Assembly (NCBI GenBank): GCA_946408655.1
Contig: CAMJTE010000004.1
Location: 1 to 38,099 of the forward strand
Reading direction: 5' to 3'
Length of the DNA: 38,099 bases
Source: an uncultured Caryophanales bacterium
GTDB lineage: Bacteria > Bacillota_I > Bacilli_A > RF39 > UBA660
A program made the translations under genes and the position numbers. This document shows, in pieces, positions 3,754 through 37,868 of this stretch (position 1 is the stretch's first letter; every line of letters starts with the position of its first letter). The notes beneath the pieces were generated by a model. It saw only the letters and a list, made by a program, of their open reading frames with translations. It ran no database searches and was not told the DNA's origin.

Positions 3754-3996
3754 ATGCAGTTAGTAGAACTTACGGAATTTTTAGTAAAAAGTTTAGTTTC
3801 CAATAAAGATGTAGTCGAGGTTAATGTTGCTGAAGAAAACAACGTAAAAGTTGTTCAAGTGCTAGTAGCTGAAGATGATATTGGAACAGTAATTGGAAAA
3901 CGCGGAAATATTGCTAATGCAATTCGTACAATTATTCAAGCTAGTAGCTACCATAATAAAGATGGTAAAGTTAGAATAAATTTTGATACAAAGTAA
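3754..3996 (+). CDS. khpA: KH-domain RNA-binding protein KhpA (YlqC)
   Basis: Short KH protein 'DIGTVIGKRGNIANAIRTII' directly downstream of rpsP. Confidence 0.92.
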   Translation: MQLVELTEFLVKSLVSNKDVVEVNVAEENNVKVVQVLVAEDDIGTVIGKRGNIANAIRTIIQASSYHNKDGKVRINFDTK

Positions 3997-4020
3997 GAAG
4001 AGAAATCTTTTTATTTTTTT

Positions 4021-4818
4021 TTAATTAATTATTTCTTTGCCAGGATTAGAATTGTAATAGTATAATCTATCGAAAAGATAATATACTTTATCCTTATCAA
4101 TTTCAAAAACTAAGTTTTTATTACGATATCTTCCTGCATCATTACCACTTTTACTAATTCTAGATATTAAGCTGGCATTAATATTACCATTTTTAAGTAA
4201 ATACATAAATTTTCCAAAACTTTTTAATTTATATACATCAATTTTGTAATTCTTAAAATATTTCTTTCCTTTAACTCTTTTTTGCATTGCATAAACAATA
4301 GCCATCCTTTGTAATTTAATCATAAGATGATTATATAGTGTTTTAATATATATGAAAGACTTTCTTTCTATTAGATTTTCATCTAAATCATATACATCAA
4401 GAAATATTTTATCATCATCCATAGAAAACTGAAAATACCACTTACTATTAACTAAAGTTTTATCTTTAAAATTTATTTTAGTAAACAATGTTTTCTTATT
4501 ACGATATACTTGATCATAACTTCCATATTTTTCAACTATTCTATCAATTTCTGGAAAAGTAGGACCATCAAAAGCAGCTGAAAATAGAAATAGGGGATAA
4601 GTACTATTAATAGTTGTACATTTAACCTCTATACCATAAAAATCCGGAAAATACATACTATCAGGATTTTTACCTAACTCACGTTCAAAAGTAATACCAA
4701 CATTACCAAAGCTATTATCATTAGCTCCAGATATCCAATCTCTTTTTAGAATGTTTTTAAATTCATCAACAATAGGTTTTATCGTTTTATCTATTTCTTT
4801 TATATACATTTTCATCAC
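4021..4818 (-). CDS. MvaI/BcnI-like restriction endonuclease family protein
   Basis: 'GNVGITFERELGKNPDSMYFPDFYGIEVKCTT' matches the MvaI/BcnI core arrangement with PD...E-x-K residues retained. Confidence 0.8.
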   Translation of the reverse strand: MMKMYIKEIDKTIKPIVDEFKNILKRDWISGANDNSFGNVGITFERELGKNPDSMYFPDFYGIEVKCTTINSTYPLFLFSAAFDGPTFPEIDRIVEKYGSYDQVYRNKKTLFTKINFKDKTLVNSKWYFQFSMDDDKIFLDVYDLDENLIERKSFIYIKTLYNHLMIKLQRMAIVYAMQKRVKGKKYFKNYKIDVYKLKSFGKFMYLLKNGNINASLISRISKSGNDAGRYRNKNLVFEIDKDKVYYLFDRLYYYNSNPGKEIIN

Positions 4819-7509: not shown

Positions 7510-8892
7510 TTACATATCAATTTCGTAATCGTCTTTTTCTTTATCATTATCATTTTCTTTATTCCAAATATAATCATCTTGAATTGATTCAATAGTTTTA
7601 TCACTAAATATATTGTGAGTATATAAATCTTTTGAAAAATTCCAATAATCTTCTCGTTCTTTTTCTTTTCCAAACATTTTATCTTTAATAAATTTAACTA
7701 ATCTATCAAATAGATTTTCAAAGAAATTAATCGTATTTTGTAGTTTAGAGTTTTTATCTTTAAGATCATCAATTTCATTTTCTTGTTTATCTATCTTTTT
7801 CTCAAGAGATTTTACTTTAATGTTTAAGGCATCATTATTTTCAGTTAGTATTTTAACTTTTTCTCTATTTTCTTTTAATTCAGTTTCAACATCATTTAAG
7901 GTAATAGATAACTTTTGCATTTTCTTATATTCTTTATTGGTTGAATCTACTTGCTGAAGAAATTTATCAATTTTATCTTTGTCATCTTTATTTAAAACAT
8001 ATTTATCTTTGTTAGTAAAAGTAGTTTTTAAATTATTAACTATATCTTTAACTTCATTAGAATTATTATCTAGTTCTAATGATTTTTTATTAGCAATTTC
8101 TAATCGTTCTTTATTTTTAGATAATTCTACTTGCATTTCAATATAGTTTCCCATATCTTTAACATTAATATCTTTATTTCTACCTTTTTGTTTAGTCTTT
8201 AATACATTATTTAAGCCATATTCTTTATTAAAACTAGCAATACATAATGTTCTCATTTTATCTTGTAGTTCAATTAATTTTGTTTTCGTAAATACATCTG
8301 ATTTACCAACTTGTTTAGACATACCATTTTTACTTTTATATTTAATAGGGACACCAACAATATGCATATGTGGACTAGTTTCATCATAATGAATAATTGC
8401 ACTTGCTACTTTAAAGTTAGGAATTAAAGTTTCTAAATCTTTAACTTGTTCTTTATATACATTAGACATTTTATGCTTAAACTTATCATCTTTAGTATCC
8501 CAATATTTTTTATCTCCAAGTTCAATAATAATTTCACAAGCCAAATCATTTTTAGAATTATCACTAATTTTTTTGAAATAATCATCTATTTTTCTATCAT
8601 CTCTAGTTTGTTTAGAATTGTATTCTAATCTTGCTTCTTCAAATTCATCTTTATATAATTTTTGAACATCACTATATAAAGAATTTGTTCCCCTAACTAT
8701 TTCAATTAAGTGCTGTTTATCATCATACTTACGATAATTATGCTTATCTACTCTTGATAATTGTCTAGCATTTTGAATAGCATTATTTGATAGAGAAGTA
8801 GTTCCACTAGCATTAGATTTTGCTCTTGTTCTTGATACATTTTTTCTATTTTTATCACTACCCAAATGTAGTGAATAAGCAAGTTCTGACAT
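7510..8892 (-). CDS. MobV-family relaxase (Pre/Mob plasmid recombination enzyme)
   Basis: 'DKHNYRKYDD' HNxR motif; 'SAIIHYDETSPHMHIVGVPI' His-rich motif; C-terminal coiled coil. Confidence 0.92.
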   Translation of the reverse strand: MSELAYSLHLGSDKNRKNVSRTRAKSNASGTTSLSNNAIQNARQLSRVDKHNYRKYDDKQHLIEIVRGTNSLYSDVQKLYKDEFEEARLEYNSKQTRDDRKIDDYFKKISDNSKNDLACEIIIELGDKKYWDTKDDKFKHKMSNVYKEQVKDLETLIPNFKVASAIIHYDETSPHMHIVGVPIKYKSKNGMSKQVGKSDVFTKTKLIELQDKMRTLCIASFNKEYGLNNVLKTKQKGRNKDINVKDMGNYIEMQVELSKNKERLEIANKKSLELDNNSNEVKDIVNNLKTTFTNKDKYVLNKDDKDKIDKFLQQVDSTNKEYKKMQKLSITLNDVETELKENREKVKILTENNDALNIKVKSLEKKIDKQENEIDDLKDKNSKLQNTINFFENLFDRLVKFIKDKMFGKEKEREDYWNFSKDLYTHNIFSDKTIESIQDDYIWNKENDNDKEKDDYEIDM

Positions 8893-8944
8893 ATATAAAT
8901 CACATCCTTTCTTTGCATCTATTTTGTTTATGACAAAATATTTA

Positions 8945-9103
8945 ACCCCCTAGGTATTTTGACACGAGTATCAAAATTACCTGTGGGCTAGGAATTCCCT
9001 AGAACCCTTTTGACTTATTCCATATTGTTTTAAAACTTCGTAATAAAACAAAATTACATAAATCTTATAAAATGCTTTTCCCACTTTCATCAGCAAAGCT
9101 GAC
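8945..9103 (-). other. Candidate origin of transfer (oriT) with nested inverted repeats
   Basis: Immediately upstream of the relaxase: IR GGTATTTTGA-CACGAG-TATCAAAATTACC (8953-8981), IR GGGCTAGG-AATT-CCCTAGAACCC (8985-9007), small hairpin TCAGC-AAA-GCTGA (9090-9102). Confidence 0.6.
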
Positions 9104-9119
9104 AAAACGTGTACGCATT

Positions 9120-11066
<1,947 letters not shown>

Positions 11067-13827: not shown

Positions 13828-15417
13828 ATGAAGAAAAAAAGAATAATACTTATTATAAGTTTAATTATAGTAATAATAGCTGCAATAGTAGCATACGTTT
13901 TATTAATATTAAATAATAATGAATGTAACAAGAAAGCTAAAACAGTAACAAATAAAGTAAAAGCATCAAAATATCAATTAACAGGAAACTCCCTTGAAGA
14001 TTTTGACCTATATTTCATGCAATTAGAAAATGAAAAAAATAATAAAATATATAGTCCATTATCAATTAAGTACGCACTTGCCATGCTAAATGAGGGAGCA
14101 AAAGGAGATACAAGAAAACAAATTGAAAGTGTAATAGGAGATTATGAATCAAAAAAATATGTAAATAGTTCTAATTTATCTTTAGCTAATGCTATGTTCA
14201 TTAAAGAAACATTTAAAGATGAAGTAAATAATGAATATATTGATACATTAAAGAATAATTATAATGCTGAAATAGTATATGATACTTTTGAAACGCCAGA
14301 TAATGTTAATTCTTGGGTAAGTGAGAAAACATTGAAATTAATTAATAATTTAGTAGATGATATAAGTGATAATAAGTTCATACTAGTAAATGCTCTTGCA
14401 ATCGATATGGATTGGAATGAAAAATTTTTAGAACATAAATATATGACAGTTCATTATCTTCATGAAAATTTTGGTTGGGGTGGACCTTCTAGTGTTCTTG
14501 GTAATAAATTTAATAACATGGACTCACAAGTAGCTGGTATGGAAATAGATGCTTCATTTAATAACTATGATATAGTAACTAAACTAGGTGAACAAAATAT
14601 TAGAGATACGGTTGAAAAAGCATATCGAGAATATTTAAATGACCCAGCAAATTATTCAGAAATTGAGTATGTATTAGGAAGTGATAGGTCAGAACAACAT
14701 ATAAACCAAGTTATTAGTGATTATCTTGAAAAATATATTTCTGATATAAATTCAAACTACAAAAAAGTAGATGCAAATACAGAATTTATGTTTTATGTCG
14801 ATGATAGTGTCAAAGCCTTTGCTAAAGATCTAAAAGAATATGATGGTACTACTTTGCAATATATAGGTATAATGCCCACAACTGAAGATTTAGATAGTTA
14901 TATCAATAACATGAATTCTAAGTCTATCAATAAAATAATAGGTAGTTTAAAAGAATTAAAATTAGAAAACTTTAATGATGGAGTGATAACTAAAATTAAA
15001 GGTTTTATTCCAAAATTTAAATTTGAATATAGTTTAGATTTATTATCTGATTTGAAAAAATTAGGAATTACTGATGTATTTGACAGTAAAAAAGCAGATT
15101 TATCTAATATAACTGATACTAAAGGATTATATGTTGATGAAGCTATACATAAAGCAAATATTGAGTTTACTCAGGATGGTATTAAGGCATCTGCTGCAAC
15201 CATGATCGGTGGACGTGGCGCTGGAGGCGGATTTGATTACATATATGATGTTCCGGTAGAAAGAATTGATTTGACATTCGATAGACCATATATGTTTATT
15301 ATAAGAGATAAACAATCTGGTGAAGTATGGTTTATAGGCACAGTATATGAACCATCATTGTGGAGTGAGGATGCTGATTATAGCGAATGGAGCTTATATA
15401 GACAGAATGAAGACTAG
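13828..15417 (+). CDS. Membrane-anchored serpin family protein
   Basis: Signal anchor; 'IYSPLSIKYALAMLNEGAKGDTRKQI', 'ILVNALAIDMDWNEKF', 'EAIHKANIEFTQDGIKASAATM' hinge and 'FDRPYMFIIRDKQSGEVWFIGTVYEP' serpin signature. Confidence 0.93.
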   Translation: MKKKRIILIISLIIVIIAAIVAYVLLILNNNECNKKAKTVTNKVKASKYQLTGNSLEDFDLYFMQLENEKNNKIYSPLSIKYALAMLNEGAKGDTRKQIESVIGDYESKKYVNSSNLSLANAMFIKETFKDEVNNEYIDTLKNNYNAEIVYDTFETPDNVNSWVSEKTLKLINNLVDDISDNKFILVNALAIDMDWNEKFLEHKYMTVHYLHENFGWGGPSSVLGNKFNNMDSQVAGMEIDASFNNYDIVTKLGEQNIRDTVEKAYREYLNDPANYSEIEYVLGSDRSEQHINQVISDYLEKYISDINSNYKKVDANTEFMFYVDDSVKAFAKDLKEYDGTTLQYIGIMPTTEDLDSYINNMNSKSINKIIGSLKELKLENFNDGVITKIKGFIPKFKFEYSLDLLSDLKKLGITDVFDSKKADLSNITDTKGLYVDEAIHKANIEFTQDGIKASAATMIGGRGAGGGFDYIYDVPVERIDLTFDRPYMFIIRDKQSGEVWFIGTVYEPSLWSEDADYSEWSLYRQNED

Positions 15418-29656: not shown

Positions 29657-29902
29657 TTGAAAGGAATAAGTGATATAGTAAGTATTAGTTTTGAAGATGA
29701 TGTAATAGTAGCTTATGATAGTGAAGAATATTTAAAAGAAGCATTTGAAGCAAATATTGAGTATGCAGTTGCAGATGCAGTAGAAGAAACTACTAAGGAA
29801 ACTACTTTGGATATAGCTAGAAAAATGAAATTAAAAGGTATTAATATATCAGATATTATGAGTATTACAGGTTTATCTAAAGAAAAAATAGATTCATTAT
29901 AG
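29657..29902 (+). pseudogene. C-terminal remnant of an Rpn-type PD-(D/E)XK nuclease
   Basis: 'TTLDIARKMKLKGINISDIMSITGLSKEKIDSL' aligns with the C-terminus of the full-length Rpn-like ORF at 36981-37832; N-terminal nuclease core absent. Confidence 0.75.
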
Positions 29903-31464: not shown

Positions 31465-31501
31465 AAAAATCAAGAAGGATTATTCATCTTTCTTGATTTT
31501 T
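31465..31501. terminator. Bidirectional terminator between convergent genes
   Basis: AAAAATCAAGA...TCTTGATTTTT. Confidence 0.7.
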
Positions 31502-34185
31502 CTATATCTTTTTTTATTTAACATTCTAGAAACTCTACTACCAATCTCATTTTGCATAGATTCTAATCTTTCGATTTTTTCATAATCAATATTATCTTTT
31601 TCAATTATTTTCTTTTCACTTGAATTAGTAATACTATCATATATTTTATCAATGAAGTTTGTATTATAATCAAGAGGTTCCATCTCATCATTTTCTTTTG
31701 CTGTTTTACTTATTGTTTTGACCTCTGATACATTAATATCATTATCAGATACATCATCTTCATTTATAGATATCTTAATAGTATCTTCTATATCATTTTC
31801 CTTATCTTCATTAGTAGTTTTTATAGTTTCATCAGATACATTATCATTAACTTTAATAGTTTCAATTACTTCTTCTAACTCTTCAATTTCTTTATCAGTT
31901 ATTTCATTATTATTGATATCTAGAGTATCAGAATTATCAATAGTTATTTCATTATTATCTATTTCATCAATAATATCTGCGTTAGAATCAGTATTATTTT
32001 CAATGATTTCATCAATTTTATCGACAAAAGAATTATCATTTTCTAAAGATTCCATCTCTTCATTATCATCTACAGTAATATCGTCTTTAGATTTTTTATC
32101 TTTCTTTTTCTTCTTTCTTTTCTTTTTCTTAGATTCTTTTTCTTCAGAAACAACTTCATTATTTTCTAGAACTTCATCAATCTTTTTGCCAAATGAATCA
32201 TCGTTATCTAAAGACTCTATCTCCTCATTATCATTTACAGGAATATTTTCTTTAGCCTCTTCTTCAATGATTTCATCATCTTTAGATTGATTTTTACTAT
32301 CAGATTCTGCTTCCTCATTAATAATCTCACTATCAGTAGGTTCACTATTTTCTAGAATTTCGTCAAGTTTTTCATCAAATGCATCATCATTATCTAAAGA
32401 TTCTATCTCTTCATTATCATTTGCAAAAGTAGTATCTTCAATAACTTCTTCATTAGATTTTATTTCATCTAGTGCCGTATCAATTAATTCATCAGAAATA
32501 CTAATACCAGTATTATTTTCATAAGTAGTTTCATTATTATCAGTATCTTCTAATATTTCAATTACTTCTTCTGGTTCTTCATTTTTTTTCTTTTTCTTGT
32601 CTTTCTTTTTCTTCTTATATTTCTTCTTTTTCTCTTTTTTATTATCGATAATATCTTCTTCAACAATATCTGTATTTTCTACTGGTGTTATCACAGTATC
32701 GATATCATTATTTATTTCACTTTCTTCAATAACTTCATCAATTTTATCAACAAAATCTTCATCATTATCAAGAGATTCCATATTATCGATATCAGGTTCT
32801 GTATCTTCATTATCTGCAGTATCATCAATTGAATCAATAACAACATCATTGGTGTCTGGAACAATTACCTCATCTATGATATCATCATCTATATAATTTT
32901 CATCATTATCAACATCATCACTATTATCTAAAGAATAATCTTCTTTTTTATTTAATTCACTATCAAGAATATCTTTTGATAAATTAAATGTAATAATAGA
33001 ATCATCTTCAAACTCAACAAGTCTTAATAATTCTTCAATAGTAGTATCTCCTCTTAAGACTTTAATCATACCATCTTGAAGTAGGGTAATAACAGAATCA
33101 TTATATACAAGATTTCTTAATTTATCTTTTCTGATATTCATACTAAGTGCATCTTGTATTTTTTGATCAATCTTAAGTACTTCTTGGAAGGCAATTCTAC
33201 CTTTATAACCATGGTTACATTTTTCACAACCAACTGCTTCATAGATTTCATCAACATCCATATTAAGCGTTTTCTTAATTAAATCTTTTTCATAAGTAGT
33301 TGTTTTTCTTAACTTTTTACAATGTGGACATAGTTTTCTTGCAAGTTTTTGTGAAATAATTCCTTCAAGTGCTTCAGCAAGTAAATATTTTTCTACATCC
33401 ATATCCATTAAACGTTCAATAGTTGATAGAGAATCATTAGTATGTAGAGTAGACAATACTAAGTGCCCTGTAACTGATGCTCTTATTGCAATAGTAGCAG
33501 TTTCACTATCACGAATTTCTCCTATCATTATTATATTTGGATCTTGTCTTAAAATAGAACGAAGAGCAGCTGCAAATGTAAGTCCGATATCAGCATTTAC
33601 TTGAATTTGGTTAACATTTTCAATATCCATTTCAACTGGGTCTTCAATCGACATAATATTAGTTGTTTCGTTACTTAATCTTTGTAACATAGAGTATACT
33701 GTAGTAGTTTTACCAGTACCAGTCGCACCTGTAACAAGAATTATACCGTTAGGCTTATTAATCATTTCGATTACTTTTTTATAGTTATAATCAGAAAAAC
33801 CTAATTGTTCAATACCATTTAAACTTAAAGTATAATCTAAGATACGTATAACTATTTTTTCTCCCTTATTAGTATTAATAGAAGAAACACGTAAGTCTAG
33901 TTCAATATCTTTAACAACACCCTTAATCGCACCATCTTGTGGAAGTCTTGATTCCGTAATATTCATACCAGATATAATCTTAATTCTAGTAATTAAGTTT
34001 TTAACATATTCCTCTGGTACAGTTGCATAATTAATTAACTCTCCATCTATTCTAATCCTTATTTGAAGTACATTATCTTTAGGATCAAAGTGGATATCCG
34101 AAGCCCCTCTACTTGAAGCATCAACTAAAATTTCATTTACTATATCCACAATCGGAGTGTGTTCAAAATCAAATACTTTTAACAT
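31480..34185 (-). CDS. GspE/PilB-family secretion/pilus ATPase with ~500-aa acidic and poly-Lys repetitive C-terminal extension
   Basis: 'GATGTGKTTTVYSML', 'IMSIEDPVEMDIENVNQIQV', 'IGEIRDSETATIAIRASVTGHLVLSTLHTNDS', Zn motif 'CPHCKK...CEKCNHG'; tail with five ~22-aa repeats. Confidence 0.93.
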   Translation of the reverse strand: MLKVFDFEHTPIVDIVNEILVDASSRGASDIHFDPKDNVLQIRIRIDGELINYATVPEEYVKNLITRIKIISGMNITESRLPQDGAIKGVVKDIELDLRVSSINTNKGEKIVIRILDYTLSLNGIEQLGFSDYNYKKVIEMINKPNGIILVTGATGTGKTTTVYSMLQRLSNETTNIMSIEDPVEMDIENVNQIQVNADIGLTFAAALRSILRQDPNIIMIGEIRDSETATIAIRASVTGHLVLSTLHTNDSLSTIERLMDMDVEKYLLAEALEGIISQKLARKLCPHCKKLRKTTTYEKDLIKKTLNMDVDEIYEAVGCEKCNHGYKGRIAFQEVLKIDQKIQDALSMNIRKDKLRNLVYNDSVITLLQDGMIKVLRGDTTIEELLRLVEFEDDSIITFNLSKDILDSELNKKEDYSLDNSDDVDNDENYIDDDIIDEVIVPDTNDVVIDSIDDTADNEDTEPDIDNMESLDNDEDFVDKIDEVIEESEINNDIDTVITPVENTDIVEEDIIDNKKEKKKKYKKKKKDKKKKKNEEPEEVIEILEDTDNNETTYENNTGISISDELIDTALDEIKSNEEVIEDTTFANDNEEIESLDNDDAFDEKLDEILENSEPTDSEIINEEAESDSKNQSKDDEIIEEEAKENIPVNDNEEIESLDNDDSFGKKIDEVLENNEVVSEEKESKKKKRKKKKKDKKSKDDITVDDNEEMESLENDNSFVDKIDEIIENNTDSNADIIDEIDNNEITIDNSDTLDINNNEITDKEIEELEEVIETIKVNDNVSDETIKTTNEDKENDIEDTIKISINEDDVSDNDINVSEVKTISKTAKENDEMEPLDYNTNFIDKIYDSITNSSEKKIIEKDNIDYEKIERLESMQNEIGSRVSRMLNKKRYRKIKKDE

Positions 34186-34266: not shown

Positions 34267-35367
34267 ATGATAATTATGAGGAAATCTAGGGGATTTGCCT
34301 TAGTTGAAACATTAATAGTATCAACTATAATCGCAACTATACTTATATATGTATTTGTTCAGTTTAATGCTTTACAAAGTGAATATAATGAATCATTTAA
34401 ATACAATGATGTTGATGATTTATATAAATTAGATAGTATTAAAAGTTATATTAACTCACTAGATAATACTGCAAAGACTAATATAATTACTAAAATAACT
34501 AGTGATGATATAATTATTATGGATAATGAAGATAATACTTATACAAATATTACATATTTTGATAATCAAAATGATTTATTAAATAATCTAGGAATTAAAA
34601 CATTAGTATTTACTAAAGCAGATATAAATAATGTAGATACTAGTAATCTTTCTAGAAACATAAAAAATATGATAAAAAAAATAGATAATAAAAGTGATAA
34701 CTATAGAATAATTGCAGAGTTTAATAATGGAAATTGCGCAACTATAACAATAAGTTTTTTGATATCTGAATTTGAATATGATAGCGATGGAAATAAGTAT
34801 AATATAGTTGAATATTTGGAGAGTACAGGAACACAATATATTGATACAGAATATATTCCTGATATTAATACAGGTTTTTATATGGATTTTATTTTAAATG
34901 ACCAAATTAGTTCATCTGGTAAAAGAATATTTGGTAGTTCTAAGCGAAACGATGGCTTTTGGGGCGGAATTATGTTATCTTCATGGGCAAATTATACTGG
35001 TGGCCAATTTGCATATGGAGAAAGATCTGTTAATTATGATCCAAAACTTGTAAGTGGTGAAAGAATGTGGATTAATCTTTCGAAAAAAAAATATACATCA
35101 TCAACAGGAGCTAATTTATCATTATCTCAATCAAGCACTTTTTTAGATGATTTATATGGTTCGTTATATATGTTTAATGTTCATACAGAAAATATGGCAG
35201 CCGTTTCAACAAGTTTAAAACTCTATTATTTAAAGATATATAATAATGAAACTCTAGTTCGTGATTATATCCCAGTAATTGATTCATCAAGTCGGCCATG
35301 TTTATTTGATGAAGTTAGCAAGACATGTTACTATAATCAGGGAACAGGCGAATTTCTTTATGGTTAG
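34267..35367 (+). CDS. Type IV pilin-like protein with C-terminal LamG-like domain (start likely ATG 34276)
   Basis: Prepilin signal 'RG|FALVETLIVSTIIATILIYVF' with Glu5; 'VEYLESTGTQYIDTEYIP ... LVRDYIPVIDSSSRPCLFDEVSKTCYYNQGTGEFLYG'. Confidence 0.85.
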   Translation: MIIMRKSRGFALVETLIVSTIIATILIYVFVQFNALQSEYNESFKYNDVDDLYKLDSIKSYINSLDNTAKTNIITKITSDDIIIMDNEDNTYTNITYFDNQNDLLNNLGIKTLVFTKADINNVDTSNLSRNIKNMIKKIDNKSDNYRIIAEFNNGNCATITISFLISEFEYDSDGNKYNIVEYLESTGTQYIDTEYIPDINTGFYMDFILNDQISSSGKRIFGSSKRNDGFWGGIMLSSWANYTGGQFAYGERSVNYDPKLVSGERMWINLSKKKYTSSTGANLSLSQSSTFLDDLYGSLYMFNVHTENMAAVSTSLKLYYLKIYNNETLVRDYIPVIDSSSRPCLFDEVSKTCYYNQGTGEFLYG

Positions 35368-35669
35368 TGAGATAACTAATTTAAATGTTAAAGATATAAT
35401 TTAAAAAAAACGTGTAATTAATTAAACTTTGAGAACTATAATTATAAAAATTTAAGAAATTACTAAAATTTTGTTGTAAAAAGTATTATAATTGCTTGCT
35501 TTAATAAATATACTAACTGCAATTAGTATCATTTAATTAATTTAGTTATATCATTTTTCCTTTTAATTTAATTTAATTTAATTTGAATCAGTGTCATCTA
35601 TTGACTTTCTACGAATTATTAGGTAGGCTCATAATAGAAAATAATATTATAATGGGAGGAAATAATTTT

Positions 35670-36755
35670 ATGAATAATAAAGGTTTTACAACAGTTGAAC
35701 TTATTACATCTTTCTCTATAGCTTCAGTTATCATGCTTGTGTTATTCAATGTAATAATAATAATGAGAGATAATATGAGTGATATAAATTCAAAAACAAA
35801 TATGTTAGTAGCGAAAGATAATCTATCTTATAAAATTAACAAAAGACTAAATGAAAAAGACCTTACTAGTCTTACTATGTGTGAAGATGGAGATAAGTGT
35901 TACTTATTTACATATAGTGATTCTACTACGGATAAATTAGTATATAATACAGACTCAATTACATTTAATAACTATACATTTGAAATAACTAGTGATATTA
36001 CGGTTAATGAACCTACTGTTACTGAACATTATGATTCAATGAATAGTACAATATATGATGGATATCTTATAATTAATATTCCAATATCTATAAATAATAA
36101 AGATTATTCTATTAAGACAGTAAAGCATATTAATAGTGAGAATGTGATTATTGATATTCTTAAATATGAATATGATAAAAGCGGTAATCATTATACTATT
36201 GTTAATTATTTAGAAAGTACGGGAACGCAGTATATTGATACTGGTGTTACACTTCCATTTAAAGTTGAAATAAGAACTCAATTTATTAGTTTTCAATCAC
36301 AACAATATTCCATTTTTGGACTTGAAAACAATAGATCACCTTGGAAAGCGTCATACATTCGTATAGATAATACAAGAAGGTTTAAAAGCAATTGTCTAAG
36401 TGAAAATTTAGTAGATTTAGGAAGTTCTGATTTGATAATTCACGATTATGTATTTAGTTGTTCTAGTAATTCTTCTTCATTAATAATGGATGGAATAACC
36501 AAAACAGACATAACTATATCAAGTGAAACTATTAGTTACACTAATTACTTATTTGCAGCAAATAGCGGTGGAACACCTAAACACTTTATGAACGGAAGAA
36601 TATATTACGCAAAATTTTATTCAGATGTTAATTTTAATACTCTAGTCCGAGATTACATACCAGTTATTGATTCATCTAGTCGTCCTTGTTTATTTGATAA
36701 AGTAGAGAAGAAATGTTATTATAATCAAGGTACAGGAGAATTCTTATATGGGTAA
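35670..36755 (+). CDS. Second type IV pilin-like protein with C-terminal LamG-like domain (start placed at ATG 35670)
   Basis: 'MNNKG|FTTVELITSFSIASVIMLVLF'; same C-terminal 'YLESTGTQYIDTG...LVRDYIPVIDSSSRPCLFDKVEKKCYYNQGTGEFLYG'. Confidence 0.85.
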   Translation: MNNKGFTTVELITSFSIASVIMLVLFNVIIIMRDNMSDINSKTNMLVAKDNLSYKINKRLNEKDLTSLTMCEDGDKCYLFTYSDSTTDKLVYNTDSITFNNYTFEITSDITVNEPTVTEHYDSMNSTIYDGYLIINIPISINNKDYSIKTVKHINSENVIIDILKYEYDKSGNHYTIVNYLESTGTQYIDTGVTLPFKVEIRTQFISFQSQQYSIFGLENNRSPWKASYIRIDNTRRFKSNCLSENLVDLGSSDLIIHDYVFSCSSNSSSLIMDGITKTDITISSETISYTNYLFAANSGGTPKHFMNGRIYYAKFYSDVNFNTLVRDYIPVIDSSSRPCLFDKVEKKCYYNQGTGEFLYG

Positions 36756-36772
36756 GTTATATTGATTGTTAT

Positions 36773-36795
36773 TTAGATAAGTGTAATGCTTATCT
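36773..36795. repeat. 23-bp direct repeat copy 1 (hairpin)
   Basis: TTAGATAAGTGTAATGCTTATCT identical to 37846-37868. Confidence 0.85.
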
Positions 36796-36980: not shown

Positions 36981-37832
36981 ATGGTTAATGTATATAATAA
37001 AGTGCTAGATGAAGATGAGGTCATACCTGTATACTTTGATAAATGTTTTAAGTTAATTTTTGGTGATTCTAATCACCTAGAAAGGCTAAATAGTTTTCTA
37101 TCTGTTATTTTACAGAAGGATGTAAAAGTAGTTAGTTTACTTAATCCTGAATTAATTGGTGATAATAGAGAGAATAAGAAAAATACAGTTGATTTGGTTT
37201 GCAAGTTAAATCATGAGTATGTATCAATAGAAATTAATACTTCATTTGGGCAAAAAGTGATTAATAGAAACTTATCTTTTATATTTCGAATGATAGGAAA
37301 AGAATTAAAGCCAGGTGAAGATTATACAGAGATAAGTAATTATTATCAGATTAATCTTAACACGATTGATTACAAGAAAGAACATTATGATGTTGTTTAT
37401 TTAACAATTGTGAATACAGGTTCAATTTATTCTAAATCAATTGAAATAATTAACATAAATATTTTATATTATGCTAAATTATGTTACAATATAACTAACA
37501 AGGACGAATTATCCGAAACTGATATATGGTTAGGAATTATTGGTACTAATAGTAAATCAGTTATTGATAAAATAACAAAGGATAATACAGTTTTAAAGGA
37601 GATTGGTGATATTGTGAAAAAATTTAGTGAAGATGATGATTTAGTATTTGAGTATAATCGTGAAAAACTAATGATGGATGATATGAAGGAAGTTTTAACT
37701 AAAGAAGTAACTAAAAAGGTAACTGAAAAGAATACTTTAGATATTGCTCGTAAGATGAAACAATTAGGTTCAGATGCAACTTTTATATCTGAAGTTACTG
37801 GTTTAACTATTGAAAAAATAGATGAACTCTAA
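36981..37832 (+). CDS. Rpn / PD-(D/E)XK nuclease family transposase
   Basis: 'FDKCFKLIFGDSNHLERLNSFLSVIL', 'NTVDLVCKLNHEYVSIEINTSF', C-terminal 'TLDIARKMKQLGSDATFISEVTGLTIEKIDEL'. Confidence 0.85.
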   Translation: MVNVYNKVLDEDEVIPVYFDKCFKLIFGDSNHLERLNSFLSVILQKDVKVVSLLNPELIGDNRENKKNTVDLVCKLNHEYVSIEINTSFGQKVINRNLSFIFRMIGKELKPGEDYTEISNYYQINLNTIDYKKEHYDVVYLTIVNTGSIYSKSIEIININILYYAKLCYNITNKDELSETDIWLGIIGTNSKSVIDKITKDNTVLKEIGDIVKKFSEDDDLVFEYNREKLMMDDMKEVLTKEVTKKVTEKNTLDIARKMKQLGSDATFISEVTGLTIEKIDEL

Positions 37833-37845
37833 TTTATTTTGTTAA

Positions 37846-37868
37846 TTAGATAAGTGTAATGCTTATCT
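37846..37868. repeat. 23-bp direct repeat copy 2 (hairpin)
   Basis: TTAGATAAGTGTAATGCTTATCT identical to 36773-36795. Confidence 0.85.

Follow-up and report, generated by a model that had tools for sequence, protein, structure and literature searches.

Predicted lectin-fold heads exchanged on a conserved pair of pilB-linked putative minor pilins in uncultured rumen and gut Bacilli

An uncultured Caryophanales bacterium encodes, next to the gene of a PilB-type pilus assembly ATPase, two adjacent prepilin-like proteins (p1 and p2), each of which ends in a version of the same domain, predicted to fold as a LamG/concanavalin A (ConA)-like lectin. Comparison with related genomes indicates that the pilB-linked pair is a conserved carrier, whose heads appear to come, go, duplicate and be replaced through recombination, in some cases by exchange of the head core alone between ends that are conserved. 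These data suggest that a hair-like filament bears adhesive heads that can be interchanged. In the reading that we consider probable, p1 and p2 are tip minor pilins of the sole PilB/PilC/PilD filament of the cell and present exchangeable LamG-fold lectins for attachment to glycans.

Two modular prepilins encoded next to pilB

The stretch of DNA analysed here (the window; 38,099 bp) is the entire contig C4 of a draft genome (G000; 1.44 Mb, 84% complete, 108 contigs), whose close kin among the public genomes searched are metagenome-assembled genomes (MAGs) from rumen and gut, labelled on deposition as uncultured Erysipelotrichaceae, Bacillales or Bacilli. Other members of the same genus were compared with it (G001, G002, G003, G004 and G006). 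The putative modular minor prepilin p1 (363 aa; 34276..35367, forward strand) was recognized from motifs, family models, its AlphaFold model and its orthologues; an ATG at 34267 is a possible start, and the ATG at 34276 is better spaced from GAAGGA. The second modular minor prepilin, p2 (361 aa; 35670..36755, forward strand), starts at ATG 35670 behind GGGAGG, and the TTG at 35583 picked by the ORF caller is not the start. Given the gap of 302 bp that separates the two genes in this genome, they may not be co-expressed. The gap is present as a single copy in the genome, which rules out a repeat element.

Both proteins begin with a short charged leader that ends in Gly and is followed by a hydrophobic stretch with Glu5 (MRKSRG/FALVETLIVST... 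in p1 and MNNKG/FTTVELITSF... in p2, the slash marking the predicted cleavage site). In p1, the class III leader peptide (34276..34293) precedes a pilin module (34294..34761) with 76–88% identity to the orthologues in G002, G003 and G004, and a linker (...EYDSDGNKYNIVE; 34762..34812). In p2, the leader and pilin module (35670..36155), a long helix followed by a beta-rich head, show 64–84% identity to pilB-linked orthologues and are joined to the linker ILKYEYDKSGNHYTIVN (36156..36206); all of these features lie on the forward strand. Each pilin module comprises about 160 residues, and the short linkers have YDxxGNxYT (in full YDxxGNxYTxV) in common. Matches to type IV pilin N-termini appear weak but consistent: Pfam N_methyl matched p1 at E=2.6e-4 (20.9 bits, just below the cut-off of 21.2) and p2 at E=0.1, and the best NCBIfam matches of both proteins were ComG minor pilin models, with the competence minor pilin ComGE at 6e-5 for p2 and 0.004 for p1, and no ComG model above its curated cut-off for either protein. 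AlphaFold models of p1 and p2, built on alignments of 82–83 relatives, place a pilin helix at residues 5–36 of p1 and 7–61 of p2, followed, at moderate confidence, by a beta sheet in p2 and a mixed alpha/beta region in p1, so that each model has the long helix and globular head of a type IV pilin. The prepilin signal that the original prediction had read in both proteins is thereby borne out in the motifs, the weak N_methyl and ComGE matches and the modelled helices.

The C-terminal domain has a predicted LamG/ConA-like lectin fold

The domain common to p1 and p2 extends from YLESTGTQYIDT to RDYIPVIDSSSRPCLFDxVxKxCYYNQGTGEFLYG. In p1 (34813..35364, forward strand) it consists of the N-motif (34813–34848), a variable core and a conserved C-end, which runs from the R encoded at 35260 and includes the Cys codons 35299–35301 and 35326–35328; in p2 it occupies 36207..36752 (forward strand), with the conserved C-end at 36648–36752. 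That both proteins end in the same domain, as first proposed from the window alone, is far beyond chance: p1 and p2 matched each other through it in BLASTP at 1e-23, and relatives match it at up to 5e-41. The domain falls outside all families of Pfam, NCBIfam and PHROGs, and no chain was matched when its profile was searched against PDB sequences. The LamG model of Pfam (LamG_3, PF13385) gave no match above threshold in the whole genome, because the domain family is too divergent; among 15 relatives, the best match to this model had E=0.0031.

Besides the pilin helix, the AlphaFold models, which the original prediction had proposed as a check, contain a beta sandwich (jelly roll) of the type found in the LamG/ConA-like lectin superfamily. 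Its conserved ends mostly reach a pLDDT of 90+, whereas the core is modelled with less confidence. Foldseek searches against the PDB matched it to agrin LG2, laminin LG5 and LG4-5, neurexin LNS2, pentraxins, CBM40, sialidase lectin domains and galectins (probability up to 1.0, E 6e-4 to 2e-2). The domain is therefore predicted to fold as a LamG/ConA-like lectin, though invisible to Pfam, NCBIfam and PHROGs. The term 'LamG-like', originally a guess, is supported by the structure comparison but not by PF13385, which stayed below its cut-off.

The cysteine pair noted at the outset is real and is typical of this genus and of membrane-anchored relatives. The motif CLFDxVxKxC is present in most pilin-borne domains of this genus and in all seven of the membrane-anchored domains tested, but is rare otherwise, with a single occurrence among 55 domains carried by other proteins. 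DSSP places the two cysteines of the AlphaFold model on two successive strands, an arrangement that would fit a cross-strand disulfide. The last 38 codons of p1 and p2 encode the same residue at 35 positions and are 81% identical in nucleotides. The identical-looking ends do not reflect a recent DNA duplication, because 16 of these 35 codons differ synonymously; together with the unrelated cores, these differences rule out that p1 and p2 of this genome recently arose by duplication or underwent gene conversion with each other.

Pilus machinery of the genome

The gene of the PilB-type ATPase (31480..34185, reverse strand) is divergent from p1, and it is the only PilB-type ATPase gene in the genome. 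The description 'divergent pilus ATPase' in the original prediction holds for its orientation but not for its core, which is an ordinary T2SSE/PilB domain (aa 8–388; E=2e-118); only the charged C-terminal tail of ~500 aa is odd. This tail (region 31480–33020, reverse strand) is rich in Asp/Glu/Asn and in Lys runs, with repeated DNEEIESLDND-like phrases. PilB is 901, 887, 677 and 877 aa long in G000, G002, G003 and G004, respectively, and ~425–490 aa in most other genera, with some longer proteins.

The original prediction hinged on a platform protein and a prepilin peptidase being encoded elsewhere in the genome, and both were found: on contig C10, a gene for a two-domain PilC (T2SSF) adjoins PilD (Peptidase_A24), with a 121-aa major-type pilin downstream. 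The genome thus holds an assembly ATPase, a platform protein and a prepilin peptidase, as a type IV pilus needs, and the proposed pilin–LamG fusion beside a pilus ATPase stands in the genomic setting expected of it. A separate Tad-type system is also present. In relatives (L237, L241, L245, L246 and L249), PilC- and PilD-like genes are clustered with pilB and the divergent p1–p2, and therefore the pair belongs to this machine. PilD would cleave the p1 and p2 prepilins, and PilB and PilC would assemble them as minor subunits through their N-terminal helices.

In 12 draft genomes of the family, no PilT match passed the cut-off, and ComEC is present in 10 of the 12, including that of the window. 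The filament could therefore be either a simple pilus that lacks a dedicated retraction motor or a Com-like competence pilus for DNA uptake, in which p1 and p2 would be tip pilins resembling ComGE and ComGF, with heads that tether the cell or aid DNA capture. The latter reading is possible, though we do not think it probable. It would account for the ComG models being the top matches of both proteins and for the single ATPase, and minor pilins of the Com pilus are known to make a tip complex (PMC12153270). However, all ComG matches lie well under the curated cut-offs, the ATPase scores ~450 bits with PilB/GspE models and 266 with ComGA (cut-off 300), and p1 and p2 are encoded outside any comG operon. 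Moreover, DNA capture needs no lectin head; Streptococcus sanguinis uses ComGD–ComGF surfaces for it (PMC12153270).

The carrier pair and its heads across relatives

The pilin module of p1 was found in 59 of 147 relatives, and at 45 loci (one per genome) pilB could be read together with a divergently transcribed p1–p2 pair. The two proteins are bare in most cases (~155–210 aa), and at least one member of the pair is C-terminally extended in 20 of the 45 genomes (p1 in 7, p2 in 17); the p1-like pilins with long heads in G041 and G045 were left out of this count, as they were not read beside pilB. The extensions on the pair are of LamG, Gly-rich, Ig, LRR, FISUMP and DUF6273-like types. Pfam recognized a canonical LamG head (LamG_3, 5.5e-18; G078), a BspA-type LRR head (LRR_5, 7.7e-26; G071), ALK/LTK Gly-rich heads (ALK_LTK_GRD, up to 4e-45; G069, G067, G034 and G008), Fib_succ_major (1e-27; G060), DUF6273 (G047), DUF7507/CBM49-like (G068) and Ig-like spacers, and several heads in other genera have no Pfam name.

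The lectin found in the window, named here after its ESTGTQ motif, was seen on this pair in the genus of the window only. It is carried by p1 in G000, G003 and G004 (p1 is bare in G002, G001 and G006) and by p2 in G000, G002 (two in tandem), G003 and G004, and is absent from p2 of G001. In G001 and G006, the same lectin is carried by single-pass membrane proteins instead. The window's own genome encodes two more lectin pilins, with tandem heads, on contigs C68 and C76. A pilin carrier that occurs bare in most genera, as well as in G001, G002 (p1) and G006, and elsewhere bears a grafted module has the make-up of a modular minor pilin. Isolated, stop-containing pieces of the lectin C-end alone were seen in G004 and G006 (L251, about 3974–4096, and L061, 3967–4131); these are probable remnants of lost heads.

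Heads are replaced independently of their carriers

Carrier and head evolve in a decoupled manner. Within four sets of pilins, either orthologous or paralogous, the carrier modules are 50–95% identical, whereas the lectin cores (the stretch between the N-motif and the conserved C-end) are 21–33% identical, at or slightly above the 22–26% of shuffled sequences. There is one exception: p2 of G003 and a p2 copy on contig C32 of G004 have 97% nucleotide identity in the lectin core and 98% in the linker and N-motif, whereas the flanks are less similar, with 81% in the pilin module and 82% in the C-end (Fisher p=3.5e-15 and 9e-8). A core that is 97% identical between species within flanks of 81–82% shows that the head moves separately from its carrier. 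In a second case, the cores of G002:C2 and G004:C6 are 80% identical on pilins of different classes that are only 37% identical. The DNA of G000:C68 and G002:C2 is 91% identical as far as roughly the ESTGTQYIDT motif, beyond which no relationship is seen over the remaining length. The same pattern was observed for major-type pilins of a rabbit-gut Bacilli genome (pilin 73–83%, lectin core near the shuffled level). Comparison of sequences between genomes thus demonstrates that heads are replaced.

The C32 copy of G004 is 5'-truncated, its start codon and prepilin signal being replaced by a tract of 26 T, with an open frame and an intact lectin kept; the genome also has an extra intact copy of p2, and each of these copies bears a different core. 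The truncated copy resembles a silent cassette, a single case in a draft assembly, and no silent copy was found in the genome of the window. Such a donor-like copy brings to mind lectin-switching throughout the genus, in which the lectin cores of pilB-linked minor pilins would be exchanged by homologous recombination, with the conserved linker/N-motif and C-end as anchors and with other genomic copies or, ComEC being present, DNA of neighbours as donors. We hold this reading to be unlikely.

The domain on other proteins and its possible ligands

Sequences from rumen and gut commonly contain members of the domain family; an alignment search confirmed 215 stretches in genome_contigs and 124 in IMG/VR. 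Its further carriers include pilins of other Bacilli, secreted proteins, phage proteins and, it seems, pilin-like proteins of alphaproteobacteria. When the p2 domain alone served as tblastn query, the INPHARED phages gave no match; predicted phage structures match the domain. In a Candidatus Gastranaerophilales MAG (L099:5524–6993), it is inserted in flagellin between Flagellin_N (4e-24) and Flagellin_C (3.5e-10). The rumen MAG RUG12675, labelled a proteobacterium, has many copies, mostly on small proteins with signal-peptide-like N-termini (loci L075, L078, L079, L083, L084, L090, L095 and L108), and in G031 the domain is on a protein that reads as lying downstream of putative phage packaging/portal-type genes.

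As the domain is also present on phage proteins, flagellin and membrane-anchored proteins, its ligand could be other than glycans. In a reading that we consider somewhat unlikely, the heads would be LamG modules that bind proteins, as those of laminin, agrin and neurexin do, or would act as spacers or as a shield whose variation is driven by phages that use the pilus. Protein-binding LG domains are among the top structural matches, and the strong variability of the core between conserved ends is as compatible with escape from phages or predators that bind the pilus as with switching of ligands; however, pentraxins, galectins, sialidase lectin domains and CBM40 were also matched, and the closest functional precedent, PilC of S. 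sanguinis, binds glycans (PMC9934059). It is very unlikely that p1 and p2 remain anchored in the membrane or form part of a secretion machine that resembles a pseudopilus, with the heads as cell-surface proteins off any protruding pilus: the single-pass anchors that bear the domain in sister species and the missing PilT would agree with this, but the genome encodes PilC, PilD and a major-type pilin of its own, and the outer-membrane context of type II secretion is not expected in this Bacilli lineage.

The probable reading is that p1 and p2 are glycan-binding minor pilins. The heads would sit at or near the filament tip, because they are bulky and because PilC of S. sanguinis provides a precedent. 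A lectin in this position would bind a glycan and so attach the cell to its host, a feed particle or a neighbouring microbe, a mechanism modelled on S. sanguinis PilC (PMC9934059) and on the modular pilin concept (PMC8179133).

Relation to known modular pilins

The original prediction suggested an appendage that may not have been described in this lineage; the fusion of a pilin to a lectin as such was already known. PilC of S. sanguinis is a modular minor pilin with Ig-like and ConA-like lectin modules, a solved structure and measured glycan binding (PMC9934059), and a survey in 2021 listed >1200 modular pilins in 264 architectures, with PF13385 among the 15 most frequent modules; S. sanguinis PilB, with a vWA module, is a further example (PMC8179133). 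Searches of the literature for the motif string, or for LamG together with pilin, returned nothing. Judged from the sequences compared, what appears new is the swapping of heads on a conserved pilB-linked pair.

S. sanguinis PilC and the proteins described here are alike in being class III prepilins with a C-terminal ConA-superfamily lectin in a monoderm type IV filament system. However, p1 and p2 lack the Ig module, their head family is unseen by Pfam, two headed pilins are adjacent, and heads swap carriers. Modular pilins were previously catalogued protein by protein, whereas here one orthologous pilB-linked pair can be traced across ~40 genera with different heads, which are gained, lost or replaced, and replacement of the core is visible in the DNA. 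The minor pilins ComGD/E/F/G of the monoderm Com pilus (PMC12153270) are likewise small and go with a single ATPase, no PilT and ComEC in the genome, but p1 and p2 differ from them in weak family scores, divergent gene arrangement and large C-terminal heads. The PilV shufflon adhesins of R64 and TP114 (PMC9045228) also have exchangeable C-terminal adhesive ends on a conserved type IV minor pilin; unlike in the shufflon, no cassette array was seen here, and exchange is seen between genomes and loci. The carrier pair offers a natural series for testing how rumen and gut bacteria retarget a pilus. It also points to a lectin-fold family missed by the databases tried, which decorates phage proteins, flagellin and membrane-anchored proteins of the same ecosystem. 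Neisseria pilE/pilS is an antigenic variation system, and the 5'-truncated copy with a variant 3' part in G004 is reminiscent of it; here, however, there is one such copy only, in a draft genome.

Other features of the window

A gene of the PDDEXK_2 nuclease family (transposase/Rpn-like; 36981–37832) lies directly 3' of p2 and is flanked by two perfect 21-bp copies of AGATAAGTGTAATGCTTATCT (36775–36795 and 37848–37868; 0 expected). The truncated p2 copy on G004:C32 is followed by the same hairpin and then by the start of a similar PDDEXK_2 gene; besides the window, this cut-off gene is the only one among the PDDEXK_2 genes seen that adjoins a head. A specific link between heads and PDDEXK_2 genes was dropped, as the latter are present in 5–9 copies in five of the six genomes of the genus and in none in the sixth. 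An 81-aa ORF after uvrA (29657–29902) resembles only the C-terminus of the PDDEXK_2 protein and is probably what is left of a further copy that lay between uvrA and pilB. Elsewhere in the window, a plasmid-mobilization-like protein and a large serine recombinase (7510–11063, reverse strand), as read from their sequences, suggest an integrated mobile element, and 13828–15417 (forward strand) reads as a membrane-anchored serpin-like protein with an insertion, which is unusual for a genome of 1.4 Mb.
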